DNA from: a virus
Length of the DNA stretch: 26,376 nucleotides
Direction: 5' to 3' (one strand)
IMG/VR virus record: IMGVR_UViG_3300046007_003321
Location: 1 to 26,376 of that record
Shown here: positions 8,372-25,461 of the stretch, one piece after another
Numbering within the stretch: the stretch's first letter is position 1
How the letters are laid out: every line of letters starts with the position of its first letter
Notes under the pieces: model-generated
The model's database searches: none
What the model saw: the letters and a program-made list of their open reading frames with translations, nothing else
What the model was told of the DNA's origin: nothing
Program-made: the position numbers and the translations under genes

Positions 8372-8834
8372 TCTCGGCCTCCTGTCGATTCTGCTCGACC
8401 ATTACTTTTGCCATGTAGTCGGCCAGGACTTGATATGCGGTCGAGTATGTCACTGAGTGCTTTGTTCCGTCAGCTTCGTAGAACGGAACGAGCGGTGAGT
8501 TGTCGTTGGCAAGTGCGAGCAGATCAGCGATATCTTTTGCCGTTCCCATTCGCGTCTGGTCTTTCTCGGTCCACCGCATTACCCATCCATTATCGAGCGT
8601 TACGCCAGTTTCTTGCTCTTGCAGGTGGCGCTCAGCGGTTGTTAATGGCGGATTGTCGACAGTGTTCTTTTCATCTTGGGTCATCTCAACAACAAAGTCG
8701 CCGCTGACTTTAAGGTACTTCCACGGCACACCGTCTGGTAGAACTGGGTTTATCAACCACTGCTCAGGCGGATAATCCGGCGTGTTCGCAAACGGAATAA
8801 TACCACCAGTGGATCGGTTTACGACTAGAGACAT
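8364..8834 (-). CDS. Tail-fibre-associated protein, unknown function
   Basis: 156 residues; the ATG has a clear GGAGGG Shine-Dalgarno and overlaps the upstream lectin-like gene by 10 bases. The N-terminal half is beta/Pro-rich (IIPFANTPDYPPEQWLINP, WKYLKVSGDFVVEMTQDE); the C-terminal half is helical (AKDIADLLALANDN, TAYQVLADYMAKVMVEQNRQ). The overall look is that of the short fibre-linked or fibre-assembly proteins that sit beside receptor-binding genes. No enzymatic motif. Confidence in the gene is high, in the role low. Confidence 0.72.
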   Translation of the reverse strand: MSLVVNRSTGGIIPFANTPDYPPEQWLINPVLPDGVPWKYLKVSGDFVVEMTQDEKNTVDNPPLTTAERHLQEQETGVTLDNGWVMRWTEKDQTRMGTAKDIADLLALANDNSPLVPFYEADGTKHSVTYSTAYQVLADYMAKVMVEQNRQEAENG

Positions 8835-9526
8835 TGCGCAGACCCTCCAATGCAGATTCGCGGCGACAGCATTGATGCCGATGTGCTCGCCATATTGTTT
8901 CCAGTTAGGTAGTGAACTCGCTGCATGTCCGCTTCATTGTTTGTCGCTGACGTATCATTTCCGTTTAACGCCCAATAATGCAACCTGCCCCGCTGCGGAG
9001 ACGACGGCTTGAACATTAACTCGTTAATCTCTTTCGTCGTTAGCGCTACATTGTACAGTGACACATGGGAGATTGCGTTGCCTGCCGACGTATTGACAGG
9101 AGTAAGGTCTAGTCGCCCAACACTACCATATACAGCCAGCGAACTCGATGTCGCGGTCGGATTGCCTGTGGTCCCTGCACTCGTAACATCTACTCCGTTA
9201 ATGAACACCTTCATCTTAGCCGTATCTGATTCGTTTGCATTAAACACACCAGCCACGTGAACCCACCCAGTCGATGTATTGGCCGCACTTTGCCGCGTCT
9301 TCGTGCTTCCATTACGAACGTCCATGTAAAGAACATTGTCGGTCCACCAATATAGCGTGATGGCATTATTGCCACCGTTCGTTATTCCGTACGGAATGAT
9401 GTATGTTCCGGTTGCAGCGCGGTACACCCACGCGACAATCGTGAAACCACTGAGTCCCTGGTAGTCGGTGCCTGTGGCAGACTCCCGGTAGAAGCTGCTT
9501 CCGTCGAAAATTCTACATCCAGCCAT
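8825..9526 (-). CDS. LamG / concanavalin-like lectin domain protein
   Basis: 233 residues occupied almost entirely by one LamG-3-type jelly-roll. Visible landmarks are the first strand with the FTIVAWVYR motif (residues about 28-36), LYMDVRNGS, the GWVHVAGVFNA strand (about 87-97), KMKVFINGVDV with the following turn, and the closing segments GRLDL, AISHVSLYNVALTTKEI. The family binds carbohydrates or glycoproteins, often with Ca2+. Directly downstream of the HTH-motif tail fibre, it is probably a receptor-recognition subunit. There is no signal peptide, as expected for a virion protein. Domain call is strong; receptor unknown. Confidence 0.82.
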   Translation of the reverse strand: MAGCRIFDGSSFYRESATGTDYQGLSGFTIVAWVYRAATGTYIIPYGITNGGNNAITLYWWTDNVLYMDVRNGSTKTRQSAANTSTGWVHVAGVFNANESDTAKMKVFINGVDVTSAGTTGNPTATSSSLAVYGSVGRLDLTPVNTSAGNAISHVSLYNVALTTKEINELMFKPSSPQRGRLHYWALNGNDTSATNNEADMQRVHYLTGNNMASTSASMLSPRICIGGSAQCL

Positions 9527-13927: not shown

Positions 13928-13969
13928 TGCGTGGAGTCTCCGTGGAATGTGGAATGCTTAGTTATATCA

Positions 13970-16720
13970 TCAACTATCGTCAGTATTAAGCCACCTCGTG
14001 GACATGCGGACTTTCTTTCGCTTCTCAAACTCCTTGAAGATTTTCATGTCCTGCGGTGTCAAGGCAACAGTCGACGACGGCGGGGCGATGTAGTACAAGC
14101 CACCTTCGTCAAAGAAAGCGCATAGGTACTCTAGACAATCGCACAAGTCATGGACGGTGCGGCTCTCGCGGCGAGTGGTGTTCCGTTTGTCGTAGTACCG
14201 AGCCGTGATCTGATCGCAGGTCTTTGGCACACGCTCTGCGTGGAACTTGAGCTTGCCGGTATTCATCATGCGCTTAACTGATAACTCGCGGCTGGCGGGG
14301 ACATTGCATCCCCAGACCCAGCCGTGCCCCATCAGGCGAGACGGCCTAATTCCAGCCGCCTCGAAACACTCGGTATAATGGTCGCACACGCGGTTTGCCC
14401 GGCCCATAGACTTCTGGCCACCGGCCTGCTTGTCGATGACGAACGCCTCAAATCGATGGCCTTTGCATATCTCCGCGCACCGGCGAGCTAGCTGCGCGGC
14501 GTCCTCGTTGCGGCACTCGACCTCGGCGTAAACGTGCAAGGCATCGCACGACGGCGGCACAGCCCCGAAGATAGCGGCTGCATACTGAGAGCCGGGGTCA
14601 ACGACCATGACTCGCATCCAGTCGTCAGGCGGCTCAAATGCGTGTGTGCCGTGAGTCGTACGCGAGAACGTCGGGTACACGGCCCGGCCCTGGATTGCGT
14701 ACTTACCGTACCAGCGGACCTGCAGAACGTCATCGCCGAGCGCCTGGTAGTCTCGGAACAGGGCGTCCTTGGCGACTCGCGGGATGTATGGGTTGTCATC
14801 GATCAACAGCGTGTATTCGCTGATGCCCTCCTCACCAGCCAGCACACGCTTGTGTAGCTCATAGAACTGAGGCGTCGACGACTGCGGCGTGGCAGACCAC
14901 ATGAAGATACCATTGAATCGCAAGAGACGAGGAAGCGTCTCTTCAAACCACATCTTGTTCTCAATTTCCTCGTCGAAGTGCGCTAGGTGCAATTGGATAC
15001 CTTGCTTCGGCCTGCCGTTCGATGTGCAGAACAGAATCTCAGTGCCGTTGTTTAGCTGCACAAAGCTGGGGATCGCCTCTGCCTTGCTCTTGTAGCTGAT
15101 CGAGTCAATCGAGAGTGCAGGCAGTAGCGGCGGGGCCGGGAGCCATTCTTCTTTTCTCGCAAAGTCAAGTGGACAGACTTCTTTTGGATTGTTCGGATCA
15201 GGTCGCACTGAACGCCATGCGCCAGTAAGTTCGTCGCGAATAACCTCGAATGCGCCTGGAACACAGAGTTTGCCCCAGATGACTCGGCCAATCTGGTCCT
15301 CGTCGCGGGCAACTGACACTACCTTGAGGTTTTCTTTCGGCAGCTTGTTGAACGGGTCCATGCCACGGACGATGCGAGCGAACTCCGCTACAGCGTGGAC
15401 AGTGTTGTGGGTTACGATGAAATCTCGCGTGACGTACGTGCTGTCTGGAGAGTCGACGCTAATGCACGTACAGTCGCCAACCACATCCGGTGTAATCGAG
15501 TGAATCACGCGGTGGTTCGTGGTGGACTCTGCGGCTTTCCACAGGTCGCACTTTCGCTTCAAACTAAACGGGCAGTGATGCGGCATTCGCACTGTCATCA
15601 CAGTGCTCGGTCGGCCCTCTTTCTTAATGCCCTTGTGGGTGTACTTCGTAACTCGCCAGCGAGTCTTGCACTTGCCGCCGAGAGATCGCACGAGGAATTC
15701 AACGTCTTTGGCCAATTGCGGAGATGTCGTTGTGAACGTGGATGTTGCACTTTTGTCCGGCCTTCTCCCGACAGTGCCATCGGTGTCCATTAAGCCACGA
15801 AGAAGCGACAGCCTGTTCTCGTATGAGTCGTACAGATACTCTTCTGGGATATGCTTCTCGTACGACCGCTTGCCCTGCAGGCCGAGCTTTCGCATATACG
15901 GAACCATGCCTCTGATTCGGTAGCTAATCTTGCTGGCCAGCTTAATCGAGCAATCGCTAGGCATCAGCGACTCTACTGACTCGATTATCTCATTATCTGC
16001 TGTCGTTATGATGACAGTCTGGTTTGACATCCCGCCGTCACCAATCAAACAGCCAAGCAGGTACGGGTGAACGTCGTGTTCTCGTTTCGAGAACTGAACT
16101 TCGCATACCGGAATGACGGCGCGATCAATTGGCGGAATGACACCATCCGATTTGCACGACTTCATTAGCTCGTCGGTGTCGACGACTTTCCATGTCTCGT
16201 TTCCTCGGTGCTTGCCAAACCGACTGGAACCTGCGCATACCTTCCATAAGTGCTCGCCGCCACACACTGTGCTCGTGCCTTCGTCAAATGTGACTCGGTA
16301 CGTCTGCTTCTGCTTGTGCTTAAAGACTGCGGTTACGCGGCAATCCTTGCCATCTCCGCCAACAATCGAATCGCCCACAGCAAGATCGCCAATCGGCTTC
16401 CATCCGGTCGGAGTCAGCACAGGTTCGCTGTCCAACTGCATCTTCCCTGCTTGATTAGACCCTGCCAAAAGACGGATTCGATCCATCGAAGAGTAGAAAT
16501 CTTCAACTGCTGGCAGTGGCTTAAAACACGCCAGCGCGTCCTTCATTGACGCCGCGTACGCAGCGAGCACACGAAGTGCATACTCGGCGTACTGCTTGGG
16601 CATGAAGCCATCGACGAGCAGGTTCGATGGCGCTGATTTGCGTTCGCGCGGAAGCTCTCGCTTGGCCTCTACCGGCGTAAGCTCGCGAATCTTTTCGAGC
16701 GATAGATATTGGTCAATCAA
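13970..16720 (-). CDS. terL: Terminase large subunit (packaging ATPase-nuclease) interrupted by an intein
   Basis: 916 residues including a 346-residue intein (94-439); the spliced product would be 570, a normal TerL size. Extein motifs: Walker A GSNQAGK(93)-[intein]-T(440), Walker B around HLAHFDEE (about 578-585), coupling motif MWSATPQ (about 607-613), and a C-terminal RNase H-like nuclease with acidic residues in VVDPGS (D708), FVIDKQ (D763) and VHDLCDCLEY (D858/D861). It pumps DNA into the prohead through the portal and cuts concatemers. The start is a TTG overlapping the upstream stop by 8 bases, without a strong ribosome site; Met40 would be too late for the N-terminal region. The P-loop is broken until the intein splices. 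Confidence 0.93.
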   Translation of the reverse strand: MIDQYLSLEKIRELTPVEAKRELPRERKSAPSNLLVDGFMPKQYAEYALRVLAAYAASMKDALACFKPLPAVEDFYSSMDRIRLLAGSNQAGKMQLDSEPVLTPTGWKPIGDLAVGDSIVGGDGKDCRVTAVFKHKQKQTYRVTFDEGTSTVCGGEHLWKVCAGSSRFGKHRGNETWKVVDTDELMKSCKSDGVIPPIDRAVIPVCEVQFSKREHDVHPYLLGCLIGDGGMSNQTVIITTADNEIIESVESLMPSDCSIKLASKISYRIRGMVPYMRKLGLQGKRSYEKHIPEEYLYDSYENRLSLLRGLMDTDGTVGRRPDKSATSTFTTTSPQLAKDVEFLVRSLGGKCKTRWRVTKYTHKGIKKEGRPSTVMTVRMPHHCPFSLKRKCDLWKAAESTTNHRVIHSITPDVVGDCTCISVDSPDSTYVTRDFIVTHNTVHAVAEFARIVRGMDPFNKLPKENLKVVSVARDEDQIGRVIWGKLCVPGAFEVIRDELTGAWRSVRPDPNNPKEVCPLDFARKEEWLPAPPLLPALSIDSISYKSKAEAIPSFVQLNNGTEILFCTSNGRPKQGIQLHLAHFDEEIENKMWFEETLPRLLRFNGIFMWSATPQSSTPQFYELHKRVLAGEEGISEYTLLIDDNPYIPRVAKDALFRDYQALGDDVLQVRWYGKYAIQGRAVYPTFSRTTHGTHAFEPPDDWMRVMVVDPGSQYAAAIFGAVPPSCDALHVYAEVECRNEDAAQLARRCAEICKGHRFEAFVIDKQAGGQKSMGRANRVCDHYTECFEAAGIRPSRLMGHGWVWGCNVPASRELSVKRMMNTGKLKFHAERVPKTCDQITARYYDKRNTTRRESRTVHDLCDCLEYLCAFFDEGGLYYIAPPSSTVALTPQDMKIFKEFEKRKKVRMSTRWLNTDDS
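15404..16441 (-). mobile_element. Class 3 (WCT) intein with LAGLIDADG endonuclease in the terminase P-loop
   Basis: Residues 94-439 of the terminase precursor. It begins with Met-Gln-Leu-Asp instead of Cys or Ser, followed by a canonical block A (SEPVLTPTGWKPIGDL). The three class 3 markers are present: Trp159 just after the block B His (GGEHLW), Cys419 at block F position 4 (CISVDSPDS), and Thr440 as the first C-extein residue after VTHN. Class 3 inteins start splicing from the block F Cys. A two-motif LAGLIDADG homing endonuclease sits in the middle (LLGCLIGDGG near 221-230 and LLRGLMDTDG near 306-315). Both motifs keep their acidic residue, so the endonuclease may be active. Confidence 0.92.
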
Positions 16721-18446: not shown

Positions 18447-18763
18447 TGATCCTGCCTCCGATGGAGTACCTCGACCTTCCGTGGCAAGATTACTGTTCGC
18501 TTTTCGTCCATCCATTGCCCGATGATGCGACAACGTGACGCAACGCGAATGCCTTCTTTTGTCTCTCGGTCAATCATGTGGTGCGCAGTGATCGTTCGCA
18601 CATTCGTCTCCCACACGCCATTGCCAACCGAGTAGTCCATGAACCACCCGCTGATGCGATGCACCTCATTGCCACCCCACGGTGCCCAGTGATCTACGTC
18701 CACGACGATATCGCAGTGGTCAACGGCAATGGGATGCCACAGTGCCAAGAGCAGAAATATCAT
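18443..18763 (-). CDS. Small protein with hydrophobic N-terminus, unknown function
   Basis: 106 residues; the ATG makes an ATGA overlap with the peptidase gene upstream. The first ~14 residues (MIFLLLALWHPIAV) are hydrophobic and may be a signal peptide, although no basic residue precedes them. The rest is polar and rich in Asp, His, Trp and Arg (DIVVDVDHWAPWGG, TITAHHMIDRETKEG). No conserved motif is recognised. As it is translationally coupled between the secreted-type peptidase and the spanin-like gene, it probably belongs to the same export or lysis function. Confidence 0.65.
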   Translation of the reverse strand: MIFLLLALWHPIAVDHCDIVVDVDHWAPWGGNEVHRISGWFMDYSVGNGVWETNVRTITAHHMIDRETKEGIRVASRCRIIGQWMDEKRTVILPRKVEVLHRRQDQ

Positions 18764-20568
18764 GGCATCACCACCGCTCGGATAGCGAAAGCCTCTTGTG
18801 CGGCCTGAGCAATTGTGCCTTCAGAGTCAATGCCGAAGCCGTACTCTAAGTCACCGCCAGCGACACCCCACTTACCCCACGAGTTAGCGTACTTGACGTA
18901 CAGCTTGCCGTCCTTAATGAACGCGCGGACGTAGCAGATGGAGTGGCCTTGGCGACCGACGACCACAGGCATGTTGAGCAGCAAGCATGTGATAAGCTGC
19001 TTCGTGCCACGCACAGAGAAGAACTCGGTGCAGCGGAAGTGCTTGGCGGTCGGCTGCCAGTCCGATGGATACGGCGTGCTCCAGCCGGTGTTCGGCATTA
19101 CCTTGTCGCCGAAGCGAGCGCGGTTCTGCTCGTTGTCTAGCGGCAAGATGCCTCGCTCTTTCATTTCCATGATGCCATCAGACACCATAGCGCCACTGCC
19201 AGGGCTTGAGCCGATCCGCTTGTACAAGCTCATCGCCGACAAGTGGATCACATTGCTCTTGCCAAACTGCTTCGCCTGCACAATCTCTTGCGATTGCGCA
19301 GTGGCGTTGGCGACACAGTTACCTGAGATCAGCACGGTTCCATTACGGCGAGTAATAAGCGTGCTATTAGCAACTGTGGCGCAGTACACCTTGCCAGTGT
19401 ACTTGCGAGTCTCGATGTGCAGCTTGCGACACAAGGTCAATTCGTCGGTCTTCGAGATCGACAGGACGTATTGCTCGCCACCAGATACTCGGCGACCGTC
19501 GTTCATGACGGAAGATCGCGGCGGCTTAATTCCAATCTTTCCTCGCTTACCAATGCGAAGGTGCAACTCCTGTAAATCGTCAATAAGCTGCTTGCTTGAA
19601 CTGAAGAACTGCGGATTACCAGCCTCGGCTCGCGCGTGAGTCTGATCTCCGAAGTATTCCATGAACAAACGAATCTGTCGCTCGCTAGCCACCTTGATTA
19701 GGTCTGGCACCTTCTTGTGGCGAGCGCCGAAGCCCTTGCCGTCGTACATGTTGTGCAACAGCCACTTTCGTAGCGCATGAGCGCCATATCGATAGAAAAC
19801 GCCTGGACGACTCGGCTGCTCAGTGAATCCTGTTCGATCGGCAAGTTCCTTGATCTTTTGGTAGCGAGACTTATTAAAGCAGCAGAAGCCAACACTGTTG
19901 CCAGATGAGGTCGGCTTACTGGCATATCCATCGGATACCAGTACCGAGATGAGTGCGATCAAGTCGTCGCCACGATACTCGCGGTCTCCTTCGATTCCAA
20001 GCTCAATAAGCTCTGTGCCGATATGGCCAGTCGGCGCTGACATGAGGCCAGCACACCAACCGAGCTTTCCGGCTTCAGTAAACGTGTAATTGCTTGCGAG
20101 CTTGCGATCTGGCTCTGACCACTTGCGCACATACATGCGGTGGTTTGGCGTCACACCGAAGTCGACGCGACTGTTCTTGCTGTACACAATGTCGCCATCG
20201 TAGTCGTACACGTGCTTTTGCTGTGGTGCCTGGAATTCAAGCAGGCCAGTCTCTTGGTTCACGGTGCCAAGCAGGTCGCTCCAGTTGTACTCAGGCCACG
20301 GCACCCACCCTTTCTCGGTGAGGACTTCGGTATCGTCGAGGTGACAGCTCCCTTCGTTCGCCTGGCTATAAATCCGCGTCACCAGATAGTCGAGCGACGA
20401 CTTCTCAAGCTCCTGCTTCGCCATCAACGCTGGCCAGTCGCCTTCGTTGATGATCTGCACGGAGTCGCCGACGTTCATACAGACGTTCATCGAGCCCATG
20501 CCAGCGAAACCACCGGCATAGTTCGGGTCTTTTGTGAAGTCAACGTCAACAAATTTGTCGTCAAACAT
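18760..20568 (-). CDS. Papain-family (C1A) cysteine peptidase interrupted by an intein at its catalytic Cys
   Basis: 602 residues including a 343-residue intein (75-417); spliced length 259. Joined exteins read NEGS-CVANATAQ, equivalent to the papain 'GSCWAF' active-site helix with Cys418 as nucleophile. The other catalytic residues are His542 (GRQGHSICYV) and Asn562 in the diagnostic ANSWGKWGVAGG. No propeptide or cleavable signal is evident, although an N-terminal 74-residue lead precedes the site. Start ATG in a TAATG overlap. It lies among small secreted and membrane genes; the likely role is a cytoplasmic or lysis/entry protease, but a virion maturation role is possible. Until the intein splices the enzyme cannot be active. 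Confidence 0.9.
   Translation of the reverse strand: MFDDKFVDVDFTKDPNYAGGFAGMGSMNVCMNVGDSVQIINEGDWPALMAKQELEKSSLDYLVTRIYSQANEGSCHLDDTEVLTEKGWVPWPEYNWSDLLGTVNQETGLLEFQAPQQKHVYDYDGDIVYSKNSRVDFGVTPNHRMYVRKWSEPDRKLASNYTFTEAGKLGWCAGLMSAPTGHIGTELIELGIEGDREYRGDDLIALISVLVSDGYASKPTSSGNSVGFCCFNKSRYQKIKELADRTGFTEQPSRPGVFYRYGAHALRKWLLHNMYDGKGFGARHKKVPDLIKVASERQIRLFMEYFGDQTHARAEAGNPQFFSSSKQLIDDLQELHLRIGKRGKIGIKPPRSSVMNDGRRVSGGEQYVLSISKTDELTLCRKLHIETRKYTGKVYCATVANSTLITRRNGTVLISGNCVANATAQSQEIVQAKQFGKSNVIHLSAMSLYKRIGSSPGSGAMVSDGIMEMKERGILPLDNEQNRARFGDKVMPNTGWSTPYPSDWQPTAKHFRCTEFFSVRGTKQLITCLLLNMPVVVGRQGHSICYVRAFIKDGKLYVKYANSWGKWGVAGGDLEYGFGIDSEGTIAQAAQEAFAIRAVVMP
19318..20346 (-). mobile_element. Class 1-type intein with degenerate LAGLIDADG domain inside the C1A peptidase
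   Basis: Residues 75-417 of the peptidase precursor. The N-terminus is Cys75 (CHLDDTEVLTEKGW, block A), block B has TPNHRMYV (His143), block F/G reads VYCATVANSTLITRRNG then VLISGN followed by extein Cys418. The terminal Asn is present but the usual penultimate His is Gly (SGN); block F position 4 is Cys396 rather than the common Asp. The central region carries LAGLIDADG-like motifs (ALISVLVSDGYA near 205-216; RQIRLFMEYFGDQT near 297-310). The second is poorly matched at the Gly/acidic positions, so endonuclease activity is doubtful. It differs in class from the terminase intein. Confidence 0.9.
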
Positions 20569-22386: not shown

Positions 22387-22519
22387 CGGTTTCCTCGGAA
22401 AAGAGACGCCTAGTGAACTGCTCGTTGATACTTTCAAGCATCGAATGGTACAGATCGGCCCACCGCTCGATGGCTTGCGCCATCGTTTCCTTCTCATCCT
22501 CGTCAAACAGCGTCTTCAT
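22286..22519 (-). CDS. Small acidic helical protein with MKTLFDE leader
   Basis: 77 residues, start ATG behind a perfect AGGAGGT, directly after the capsid-unit terminator. It starts MKTLFDEDEKE, the same leader found on two unrelated small genes near the right edge. Residues 10-45 form an amphipathic acidic helix (MAQAIERWADLYHSMLESIN). From about residue 48 the sequence turns into Arg/Thr/Pro-rich text (RRQAIRHTTEESPG) while the overlapping next frame becomes convincingly coding, so the real protein may end earlier or continue by a frameshift into that frame. Function unknown. Confidence 0.65.
   Translation of the reverse strand: MKTLFDEDEKETMAQAIERWADLYHSMLESINEQFTRRLFSEETDAQERFRSAFQEDTRRQAIRHTTEESPGVQVPG
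22493..22519 (-). repeat. MKTLFDE leader repeat, copy 3
   Basis: Begins ATGAAGACGCTGTTTGACGA and encodes MKTLFDEDE. Unlike the other two copies it follows a perfect AGGAGGT ribosome site and lies about 3.2 kb away, beyond the capsid unit. Confidence 0.85.
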
Positions 22520-22535
22520 AATACCTCCTGCGCAT

Positions 22536-22578
22536 AAAAAAACCCCACACCTGGATTATAGCCCAAGTGTGGGGTTTT
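22536..22578 (-). terminator. Strong Rho-independent terminator after the capsid unit
   Basis: On the minus strand a 16-bp stem (one G-U pair) with an 8-base loop GCTATAAT is followed by at least seven U (arms 22563-22578 and 22539-22554). The core is AAAACCCCACACTTGG paired to its complement. It lies 8 bases beyond the decoration-protein stop and ends just before the ribosome site of the next gene, so it separates capsid and accessory units. Confidence 0.92.
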
Positions 22579-22586
22579 GCAAGGGA

Positions 22587-23145: not shown

Positions 23146-24234
23146 CTAGGAGATATTGGCAAACTTGCATTGGCTTCGCGGATTGACGAGCCGCAAATTG
23201 CCAAAGAAGTCGATTGCGACACGATCGCTCAACGATTCCAAGTTGAAATCGCTGTTGCTCTTGAACAACTGATCCTGCCACGAGTGCAGTTCAATTTCGT
23301 CAAGACACAGGCCGTAGCCGACGCCCGCAGTCAAGCCGTGCTCCCAGTACACATCAACGCCATTGACGTTGAGCGATTGGAAGCCAGCCGAAGTCTTCTG
23401 GACGCTTTGGCCACGCTGAACATGAATCTGCTCCTTAGCCTCAAGAGCGTCGCTCAATTGGCGGAACATGTTCTTTTCGAGCAAGAACATGTCAAGGTTG
23501 CTGCCGTTTCGCTCGGTGTTAATCGATGCGAACCGGAGGGCTTCGAGACACGTATTTGCCCAAGTCTTCGTGCTGTTCGACCAGCCACCAGACGAGGCAG
23601 CCAGCGAAGCACCGTAGTCAACAACCAACGGGCTCCAGAAGTCGTAGTGACTGTCACCGTAGCCGTCAGGCCACGTACCAGTCCACGTACCACCGTAGTT
23701 AGCGCGAGCCGTCGAAAGACCAGCGTAAGTGTCAGCGTTGATGCCGACGAGAGCAGCAGCGCCGTCGTCAGTCGCAGCGAACACCGACTCCAAACCGTGA
23801 ATGCGGTTCGTGCTTGCAGCCGCATTGCCGTCAACATTGAGCAACTGCTCAGCGAACTGATCGCGAATGTCCGCAATCAAGTCCTTGACCATCGCCGTGT
23901 ACTTGTTGACAATTGCCTCTTTGCCAGAGCACATCAGCTTGTCGGCCTTGGTGCCTGACTGCGAAACAACATACGCACGCATCGGCAAGGTAGCCGACTT
24001 GTGTTGATCCAGTCGCGAAAACGTGATCGAGTCCGAATCATCAAACGGAGTCAATGGAGCACGCTTGTGCTTCACTTTCCATTCGATGTTCTTGCCGGTG
24101 CATCCGTTGGTGATACGACCCTTGCTTTGAAGCATCGCGAGGAAAACTCGCTTGCGCAAAATAGCCAAGGTCTCGCCACGGATGTAGCGGTTGATCGTGA
24201 TATTCGCATGGATCGAGTTACTGCCAAAACTCAT
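23146..24234 (-). CDS. Major capsid protein (HK97-type fold, inferred)
   Basis: 362 residues. ATG at 24234 has GGAGAG eight bases before it; a GTG 15 bases earlier is not preceded by a ribosome site. Evidence for the role is position (scaffold immediately before, decoration-type gene after), length and pattern: an N-terminal helical arm (NITINRYIRGETLAILRKRV), then ATLPMRAYVVSQSGTK (E-loop/spine-like), a long helix IVNKYTAMVKDLIADIRDQF, and C-terminal GVDVYWEHGLTAGVGYGLCLDEIELHSW resembling the P/A-domain strands of phage coat proteins. It forms the icosahedral shell. Translation may be controlled by the folded leader described separately. Confidence 0.85.
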   Translation of the reverse strand: MSFGSNSIHANITINRYIRGETLAILRKRVFLAMLQSKGRITNGCTGKNIEWKVKHKRAPLTPFDDSDSITFSRLDQHKSATLPMRAYVVSQSGTKADKLMCSGKEAIVNKYTAMVKDLIADIRDQFAEQLLNVDGNAAASTNRIHGLESVFAATDDGAAALVGINADTYAGLSTARANYGGTWTGTWPDGYGDSHYDFWSPLVVDYGASLAASSGGWSNSTKTWANTCLEALRFASINTERNGSNLDMFLLEKNMFRQLSDALEAKEQIHVQRGQSVQKTSAGFQSLNVNGVDVYWEHGLTAGVGYGLCLDEIELHSWQDQLFKSNSDFNLESLSDRVAIDFFGNLRLVNPRSQCKFANIS

Positions 24235-24243
24235 GGCTAGACT

Positions 24244-24377
24244 CTCCACTTTGGAATTGATAAAACTTGCGGAGGTGTGGAGATGCCGTAAAGATCAAAT
24301 GCTTTCGGGCCGCGATGCGGGTGTCCGATTGCATTTAATCCGCCGTCTTCGGCTCTCGCCTCCACTAAACGAGAGCC
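24244..24377 (-). ncRNA. Candidate structured leader / translational switch upstream of the capsid gene
   Basis: In the 152-base gap before the capsid start, the minus-strand RNA can form P1 (8 bp, 24370-24377 with 24351-24358; 11-base loop UUUAGUGGAGG). P2 is a nested hairpin: AAAUGC/GCAUUU at 24331-24336 and 24297-24302, inner CGG/CCG and CCGC/GCGG with an AUC loop. The single-stranded CUCCAC at 24277-24282 is complementary to the P1 loop GUGGAG (24360-24365), giving a pseudoknot. It is equally complementary to GUGGAG at 24244-24249, which contains the capsid Shine-Dalgarno (7 bp with the next A-U pair). The pairings exclude each other. No ligand or known riboswitch family is recognised; folding was judged by eye. 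Confidence 0.5.
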
Positions 24378-25396: not shown

Positions 25397-25411
25397 AGTG
25401 GAGTGGAGTGG
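25397..25411 (-). repeat. Three CCACT units in the scaffold gene leader
   Basis: On the minus strand the scaffold leader contains CCACTCCACTCCACT, just upstream of its AGGG ribosome site. The unit includes CUCCAC twice, the same hexamer that could mask the capsid Shine-Dalgarno. A spacer repeat or binding site is possible. Confidence 0.6.
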
Positions 25412-25461
25412 ATTATTAGATACTATCACGATCAACTTACTGATGGATACCCACCGCGCAT

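Follow-up and report, generated by a model that had tools for sequence, protein, structure and literature searches.

The T7 gene 10 transcript carries a short hairpin at its 5' end with a stabilising role, and the MS2-type coat-protein operator of RNA phages is a protein-bound hairpin with a single-nucleotide bulge at the replicase start. Podophages, including the abundant pelagiphages, need far more capsid than scaffold protein from adjacent genes, and to our knowledge the post-transcriptional setting of this capsid:scaffold output is largely unexplored beyond T7 and T4. In the leader of T4 gene 32, a translational operator acting in cis, a pseudoknot lies about 67 nt before the start (PMC3014915).

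In this study, a capsid leader RNA was analysed in one IMG/VR virus record of 26,376 nt (hereafter the window) and compared with these systems. By analogy, this leader would work most like the T4 gene 32 operator, in whose family it is not placed: both are phage mRNA leaders on a gene for a protein made in structural amounts, with an upstream pseudoknot in T4 and a possible one in the window, but the phage group and the gene are different, the A+U-rich repeats bound by gp32 are a property of the T4 leader, and the T4 leader is without the wobble-bulge module defined below. The likeness is one of mode of working, and no homology is claimed. The T7 gene 10 leader likewise has a hairpin in a podophage scaffold-capsid gap just upstream of a strong ribosome site, but this gap is of 93 nt, has its own phi10 promoter and holds a simple hairpin, in which the module was not seen by eye. 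The MS2 operator, compared by description only, shares the concept of a capsid-related hairpin with a fixed, protein-bound bulge, and differs in its RNA phage origin, its replicase-start position and its single-nucleotide bulge, against a 3-nt bulge in the capsid leaders. With translational riboswitches and RNA thermometers the window leader has in common that it can hide its Shine-Dalgarno (SD) segment by pairing; however, this pairing is not kept in relatives and no Rfam class matches.

The capsid leader and its conservation in related phages

The genes around the leader all lie on the minus strand. The major capsid protein gene (23146-24234) is of the podophage type, with a match to NCBIfam NF033394.1 above the cut-off and to phrog_9953, and 5' of it lies an acidic ORF (25385-24387) called scaffold-like from its position and composition only, for which family searches gave no match. 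The gap between the two, from the UAG ending the scaffold-like ORF (24389-24387) to the capsid AUG at 24234, is noncoding. No close homologue of the capsid protein was found in 84,980 prokaryote genomes or among annotated phages. On the other side of the capsid gene, an intrinsic-terminator-like hairpin, CCCACACTTGGGCTATAATCCAGGTGTGGGGTTTTTTT, is found at about 22525-22579 of the minus strand, immediately before an ORF whose start lies at 22519.

A preliminary description of this DNA had proposed that two hairpins and a CUCCAC element in the gap form an on/off switch of capsid translation, and had named alternative helices that form no better than in shuffled sequence as evidence to the contrary. 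Both hairpins, the element and its two complementarities were found on the minus strand, and the leader (24386-24220) has a predicted fold of -64.3 kcal/mol (z -3.48), a value reached by none of 200 dinucleotide shuffles. In this predicted fold, a closing helix, P0 (24342-24387; GCUGUC at 24387-24382 with GACGGC at 24347-24342), surrounds hairpin P1 (24351-24377), the stem of which (24377-24370 with 24358-24351) bears the 11-nt loop UUUAGUGGAGG at 24369-24359. Hairpin P2 (24293-24340; stem 24340-24331 with 24302-24293, lower stem GAUUAAAUGC with GCAUUUGAUC) contains the internal-loop module GG-A-CAC-[CCGC AUC GCGG]-C-CC, matched by descriptor at 24307-24326 in orientation A. The 3' element (24269-24282) comprises CUCCAC (24282-24277) and CCUCCGC (24275-24269), each complementary to the P1 loop, and the capsid SD segment GUGGAGA (24243-24249), a feature of the window and its closest relative only, can pair with UCUCCAC. 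CUCCAC makes six pairs plus a G-U with the P1 loop and seven with the SD segment, and the duplexes of the 3' element reach -14.5 kcal/mol with the SD segment (0 of 500 shuffles as good) and -12.9 kcal/mol with the P1 loop (7 of 500). The loop has a second, equal partner in CCUCCGC (-11.1 versus -11.0 kcal/mol for CUCCAC). A nested model without pseudoknot keeps the window SD almost always paired (probability of being unpaired 0.01).

Homologous leaders were collected through a capsid-protein search of viral contigs, which gave relatives at 92% (L003) and 67% identity (L002 and L013), the leaders of the latter two being also present in L009 and L012. The structured RNA is kept in all three distinct relatives (L003, L002 and L012), and hence in four phages including the window. 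The P1 loop is identical in all four, while the sequence of its stem has changed almost wholly with pairing retained: 96.9% of cells are paired, 5 of 8 pairs have changed on both sides, and the covariation score of 0.854, against 0.351 in shuffles and reached by none of 500, comes from four similar sequences, two of them close, a set too small by itself for a formal covariation test. Compensatory change is also seen in P0 of L003 (GCUGCU/AGCGGC), where L002 and L012 have GCUG/CAGC, and the P2 stem has another sequence in L002 and L012 and is still paired, with its tip GGAYACCCGC...CGGCCC retained across the relatives. YCCAC and CUCCGC of the 3' element are retained in the four phages at near-constant spacing, and the complementarity between P1 loop and 3' element holds in each (-10.9 to -12.9 kcal/mol; 6 to 29 of 500 shuffles as good), the invariant loop giving no covariation. 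Some 40 unrelated places that match the loop pattern have a P1 stem of 0-3 bp, against 7-9 bp in the four members.

Pattern searches extending beyond the relatives were rejected as sources of further members. In genomes and viral contigs, non-relative matches to GTTTAGTGGAGGC...CCCGC were chance ones without a P1 stem, those to AGTGGAGG...ACCCGCnnnGCGG were also due to chance, and a pattern of P1 loop plus 3' element recovered only the relatives and three chance matches. One chance motif match, in L044 (13367-13430, minus strand), falls in a region that looks, by eye, like a CRISPR tracrRNA.

The wobble-bulge module of podophage capsid leaders

The internal loop of P2, which recurs in many podophage capsid leaders, is the most widely conserved part of the leader and had been omitted from the preliminary description. 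A scan with the P2 tip, GGACACCCGCNNNGCGGCCC, returned, besides the relatives, seven loci in which this hairpin is again flanked by a scaffold-like ORF and a major capsid gene, the capsids being from other families (phrog_3437 and phrog_267). Annotated podophage gaps were then gathered via capsid homology, independent of the motif, and a first descriptor (CCC / GGAYAM in either orientation, with flanking pairs) was present in 10 of 21 against 0.39 expected from shuffles. Because some of these gaps had suggested the descriptor in the first place, it was frozen and tested on 80 new loci picked by capsid protein alone, where it matched 19 capsid upstream regions, compared with 10 of 1146 same-strand and 12 of 1303 reverse-strand control windows. 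When the loop sequence was not presumed, ACAA/C and AUAA/C were among the most enriched 4x1 internal loops, beside a second set including GUAG/U.

The 16 base combinations at the position extending the CC/GG stem were counted once per gap in 57 non-redundant leaders. Only G.U (22 versus 2.6 expected) and A.C (17 versus 2.8) were strongly enriched, whereas the Watson-Crick pair A-U was not (6 versus 4.3) and G-C only slightly so (5 versus 2.4). A.C and G.U wobbles are near-isosteric, and the position therefore looks like a required non-Watson-Crick pair beside a 3-nt bulge. The module was accordingly defined as a CC/GG stem, an A.C or G.U wobble and a 3-nt YAR-type bulge, with flanking stems; bulge sequences are UAG, UAA and CAA, and CAC in the window. 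There, the wobble is A24324.C24309 and the stems are GG/CC and CCGC/GCGG, in agreement with this definition; the third bulge base is C, as in ctgrD200 and L076, and the module is located inside the scaffold-capsid gap, some 90 nt before the capsid AUG. The gaps of L003, L002 and L012 also hold the module, with one copy per full contig, and in the window copy A stands alone, a second copy in the opposite orientation not being found.

With both wobble forms allowed, the module occurs in 37 of the 57 leaders: 30 have orientation A, 28 orientation B and 21 both, against 15, 19 and 2 of 832 control windows, respectively. In leaders with two copies, which are thus no required feature of the family, A precedes B with a spacing of 36-57 or 100 nt, and the module typically stands about 60 and 105-140 nt before the capsid AUG. 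Part of the data had already been seen when the G.U form was defined, and the loci used for this were the same 80; its sole out-of-sample test, Vibrio phage K292, supports it with two module copies. Carriers include pelagiphages, Vibrio phage K292, T7-like phages of cyano-, beta- and alphaproteobacterial hosts, and the window clade. As a MAFFT alignment of all A-copy hairpins misplaced the 3' side, pair counts were made on equal-length subsets: the stems of orientation A are 93.5% paired with a covariation score reached by none of 500 shuffles, the pairs beyond GG/CC having been outside the search pattern, and orientation B stems likewise pass the covariation test. In L176 and L184, an A copy with an A.C wobble (AUAA) and a B copy with a G.U wobble (GUAG) stand upstream of the same capsid gene, and the two forms are thus interchangeable within one RNA.

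Descriptor matches are confined to the capsid leader in the genomes inspected: three of the A.C form in Pelagibacter phage Baldr (39.5 kb), two of the A.C form in L076, and a single match on both strands of the window (26.4 kb). The module is absent from 20 of the 57 non-redundant leaders and from all 23 distant phrog_9953 capsid relatives (L004, L014-L036), in which the gaps are mostly short; taken with T7, these leaders indicate that capsid expression does not in general depend on it. Comparison with Rfam (4227 families) gave zero covariance-model matches at gathering for the window, in agreement with the earlier statement that no known class could be recognised, and for the related leaders zero at gathering and zero at E<=2 in 13 loci; one unrelated sub-threshold match lies downstream. 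A full-text literature search, in which most subscription papers and preprints fall outside the coverage, returned no report of such an element. The capsid leader family is absent from Rfam and in this sense uncatalogued, and an earlier report is possible. Structure, covariation, restriction to capsid leaders and conservation across capsid families are established at the level of sequence.

Readings of the leader RNA

The switch originally proposed would have the 3' element pair either with the P1 loop, leaving the SD free, or with the SD, turning translation off, the choice being set by ligand, protein or temperature. Both helices are available in the window and in L003, where the SD helix also amounts to -14.5 kcal/mol (3 of 500 shuffles as good). 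L002, with SD GAGGA, and L012, with SD AGGA, form no strong helix (-7.1 and -3.4 kcal/mol; 170 and 241 of 500 shuffles as good), so that the alternative SD-sequestering helix of an anti-SD switch is, in these two, no better than shuffles; nor was the marginally stable SD helix of an RNA thermometer found, opening of the window SD costing 11 kcal/mol (37 C) before any pseudoknot gain and the SD of L012 being half open. SD occlusion is restricted to the window and its closest relative as a local addition, and the on/off switch is therefore not the conserved function; the loss of this complementarity in homologous leaders is largely what the preliminary description had itself named as counter-evidence. 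The two states were also said to exclude each other. Since the loop has a second partner, a pseudoknot via CCUCCGC is possible while CUCCAC pairs with the SD, and the exclusive two-state logic is neither conserved nor forced. A P1 hairpin of this kind is, moreover, missing in most phages with the P2 module. Of the translational-switch reading there stands a conserved structured RNA before the capsid gene; its SD occlusion fails in L002 and L012, and as a whole we regard it as improbable. Far less credible is a programmed read-through of the UAG that would make the gap coding: the frame after the scaffold UAG (24389-24237) stays open over 49 codons in both the window and L003, ends beside the capsid SD and bears the sole L003 length change, of 3 nt, but it is broken in L002 and L012, the stems covary as RNA and the distance from UAG to P0 varies, and read-through was rejected on account of the frame broken in two relatives. 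A self-cleaving ribozyme or intron remnant could account for a compact fold with an invariant loop, a possible pseudoknot and an internal loop in which certain residues are fixed; nevertheless, none of the Rfam models, among them those of ribozymes and introns, gave a match and no conserved cleavage-site context was recognised, which leaves this a very improbable origin.

Two readings give the leader a role in capsid mRNA or protein supply. As a nuclease barrier or cleavage guide, it would protect the capsid mRNA in the manner of a 5' stabilising hairpin such as that of T7 gene 10; the hairpins are strong and immediately 5' of the most expressed late cistron, and they occupy a similar position in phages that infect very different hosts, in agreement with a physical role independent of the host. 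A generic barrier, however, would need neither a fixed wobble and bulge sequence nor two copies in opposite orientation, and we find mRNA stability or processing a doubtful main function. Autoregulation, in which the capsid or the scaffold protein, once unassembled subunits build up, would bind the module as a repressor of capsid translation, is in agreement with the occurrence of the module at the capsid leader only, with inverted duplicate sites that suit an oligomeric protein and with the T4 gp32 precedent (PMC3014915). Against it, the capsid families accompanied by the module have no detectable mutual similarity (hhalign probability 0.1 between the profiles of the window clade and the phrog_3437 type, from shallow alignments), and the capsid protein is thus not an obvious ligand; this too we judge unlikely, if a little less so.

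The folded leader RNA before the capsid gene probably helps to set the amount of capsid protein. The simplest reading of a fixed wobble-bulge site that is often present as an inverted duplicate, at defined distances from the ribosome site, is that of a docking site, and on balance we lean towards an uncatalogued family of cis-acting podophage capsid-mRNA leaders in which the wobble-bulge module would most likely be a docking site that sets capsid expression. Under this docking model, the scaffold-capsid gap would yield a leader RNA that is folded and acts in cis on the major capsid cistron. In this RNA, an obligatory A.C or G.U wobble extends the CC/GG stem and is followed by the YAR-type bulge, in one copy or in two of opposite orientation. 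The module would be bound, most likely by a protein, and docking would set capsid translation or mRNA lifetime relative to the scaffold cistron of the same transcript. In the window clade, the added P1 hairpin with its invariant loop may form a pseudoknot with CCUCCGC/CUCCAC beside the ribosome site. A strict A.C or G.U wobble by a short bulge, kept through full stem turnover, would be a new RNA structural module, and its recurrence in very different phages, confined to capsid leaders, offers a concrete and testable handle on capsid output.

UCCAC tags in the leaders of other assembly genes

Further sequences complementary to the P1 loop are present in the window, all on the minus strand: UCCACUCCACUCCACU (25397-25412) upstream of the scaffold start, and three UCCAC copies (13931-13953) in the leader of the ORF that precedes the portal gene. 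CUCCAC(U) occurs at the same place upstream of the scaffold gene in L003, L002 and L012, and UCCAC tags are present in the orthologous pre-portal-ORF leaders of all three. The P1 loop AGUGGAG might pair with the tags of the scaffold and pre-portal leaders and coordinate three assembly genes. Tags are found in every scaffold, capsid and pre-portal leader of the four genomes, and a 6-nt complement of the loop lies within 60 nt upstream of only 1 of 24 other window genes; on the other hand, given the tags, permuted loops match as well in 0.036 (by count) or 0.012 (by total length) of cases, the tags may be promoter or translation signals in their own right, and the idea is post hoc and restricted to the window clade. 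Judged from complementarity, loop-tag pairing is suggestive only, and coordination of the three genes through it appears rather unlikely. More tentative than the docking model is the wider proposal that these leaders may represent a new mRNA-leader class spanning several podophage lineages, with an undescribed wobble-bulge module, often in two inverted copies, that would exert post-transcriptional control of capsid output, and with a P1 loop that in the window clade would also contact the scaffold and pre-portal tags.

The ORF of the terminase large subunit (13970-16720, minus strand; 916 aa) contains an intein-like insert that includes a LAGLIDADG homing endonuclease domain, and the ORF in the corresponding position of L012 is 917 aa long. 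A 602-aa ORF (18760-20568, minus strand), with a weak match to phrog_85 (thymidylate synthase) over residues 64-151 only, reads as a putative peptidase-like protein split by an intein-like insert. Among the tail genes, one (8825-9526, minus strand) codes for a product in which a concanavalin A-like lectin/glucanase domain (Laminin_G_3) is present.
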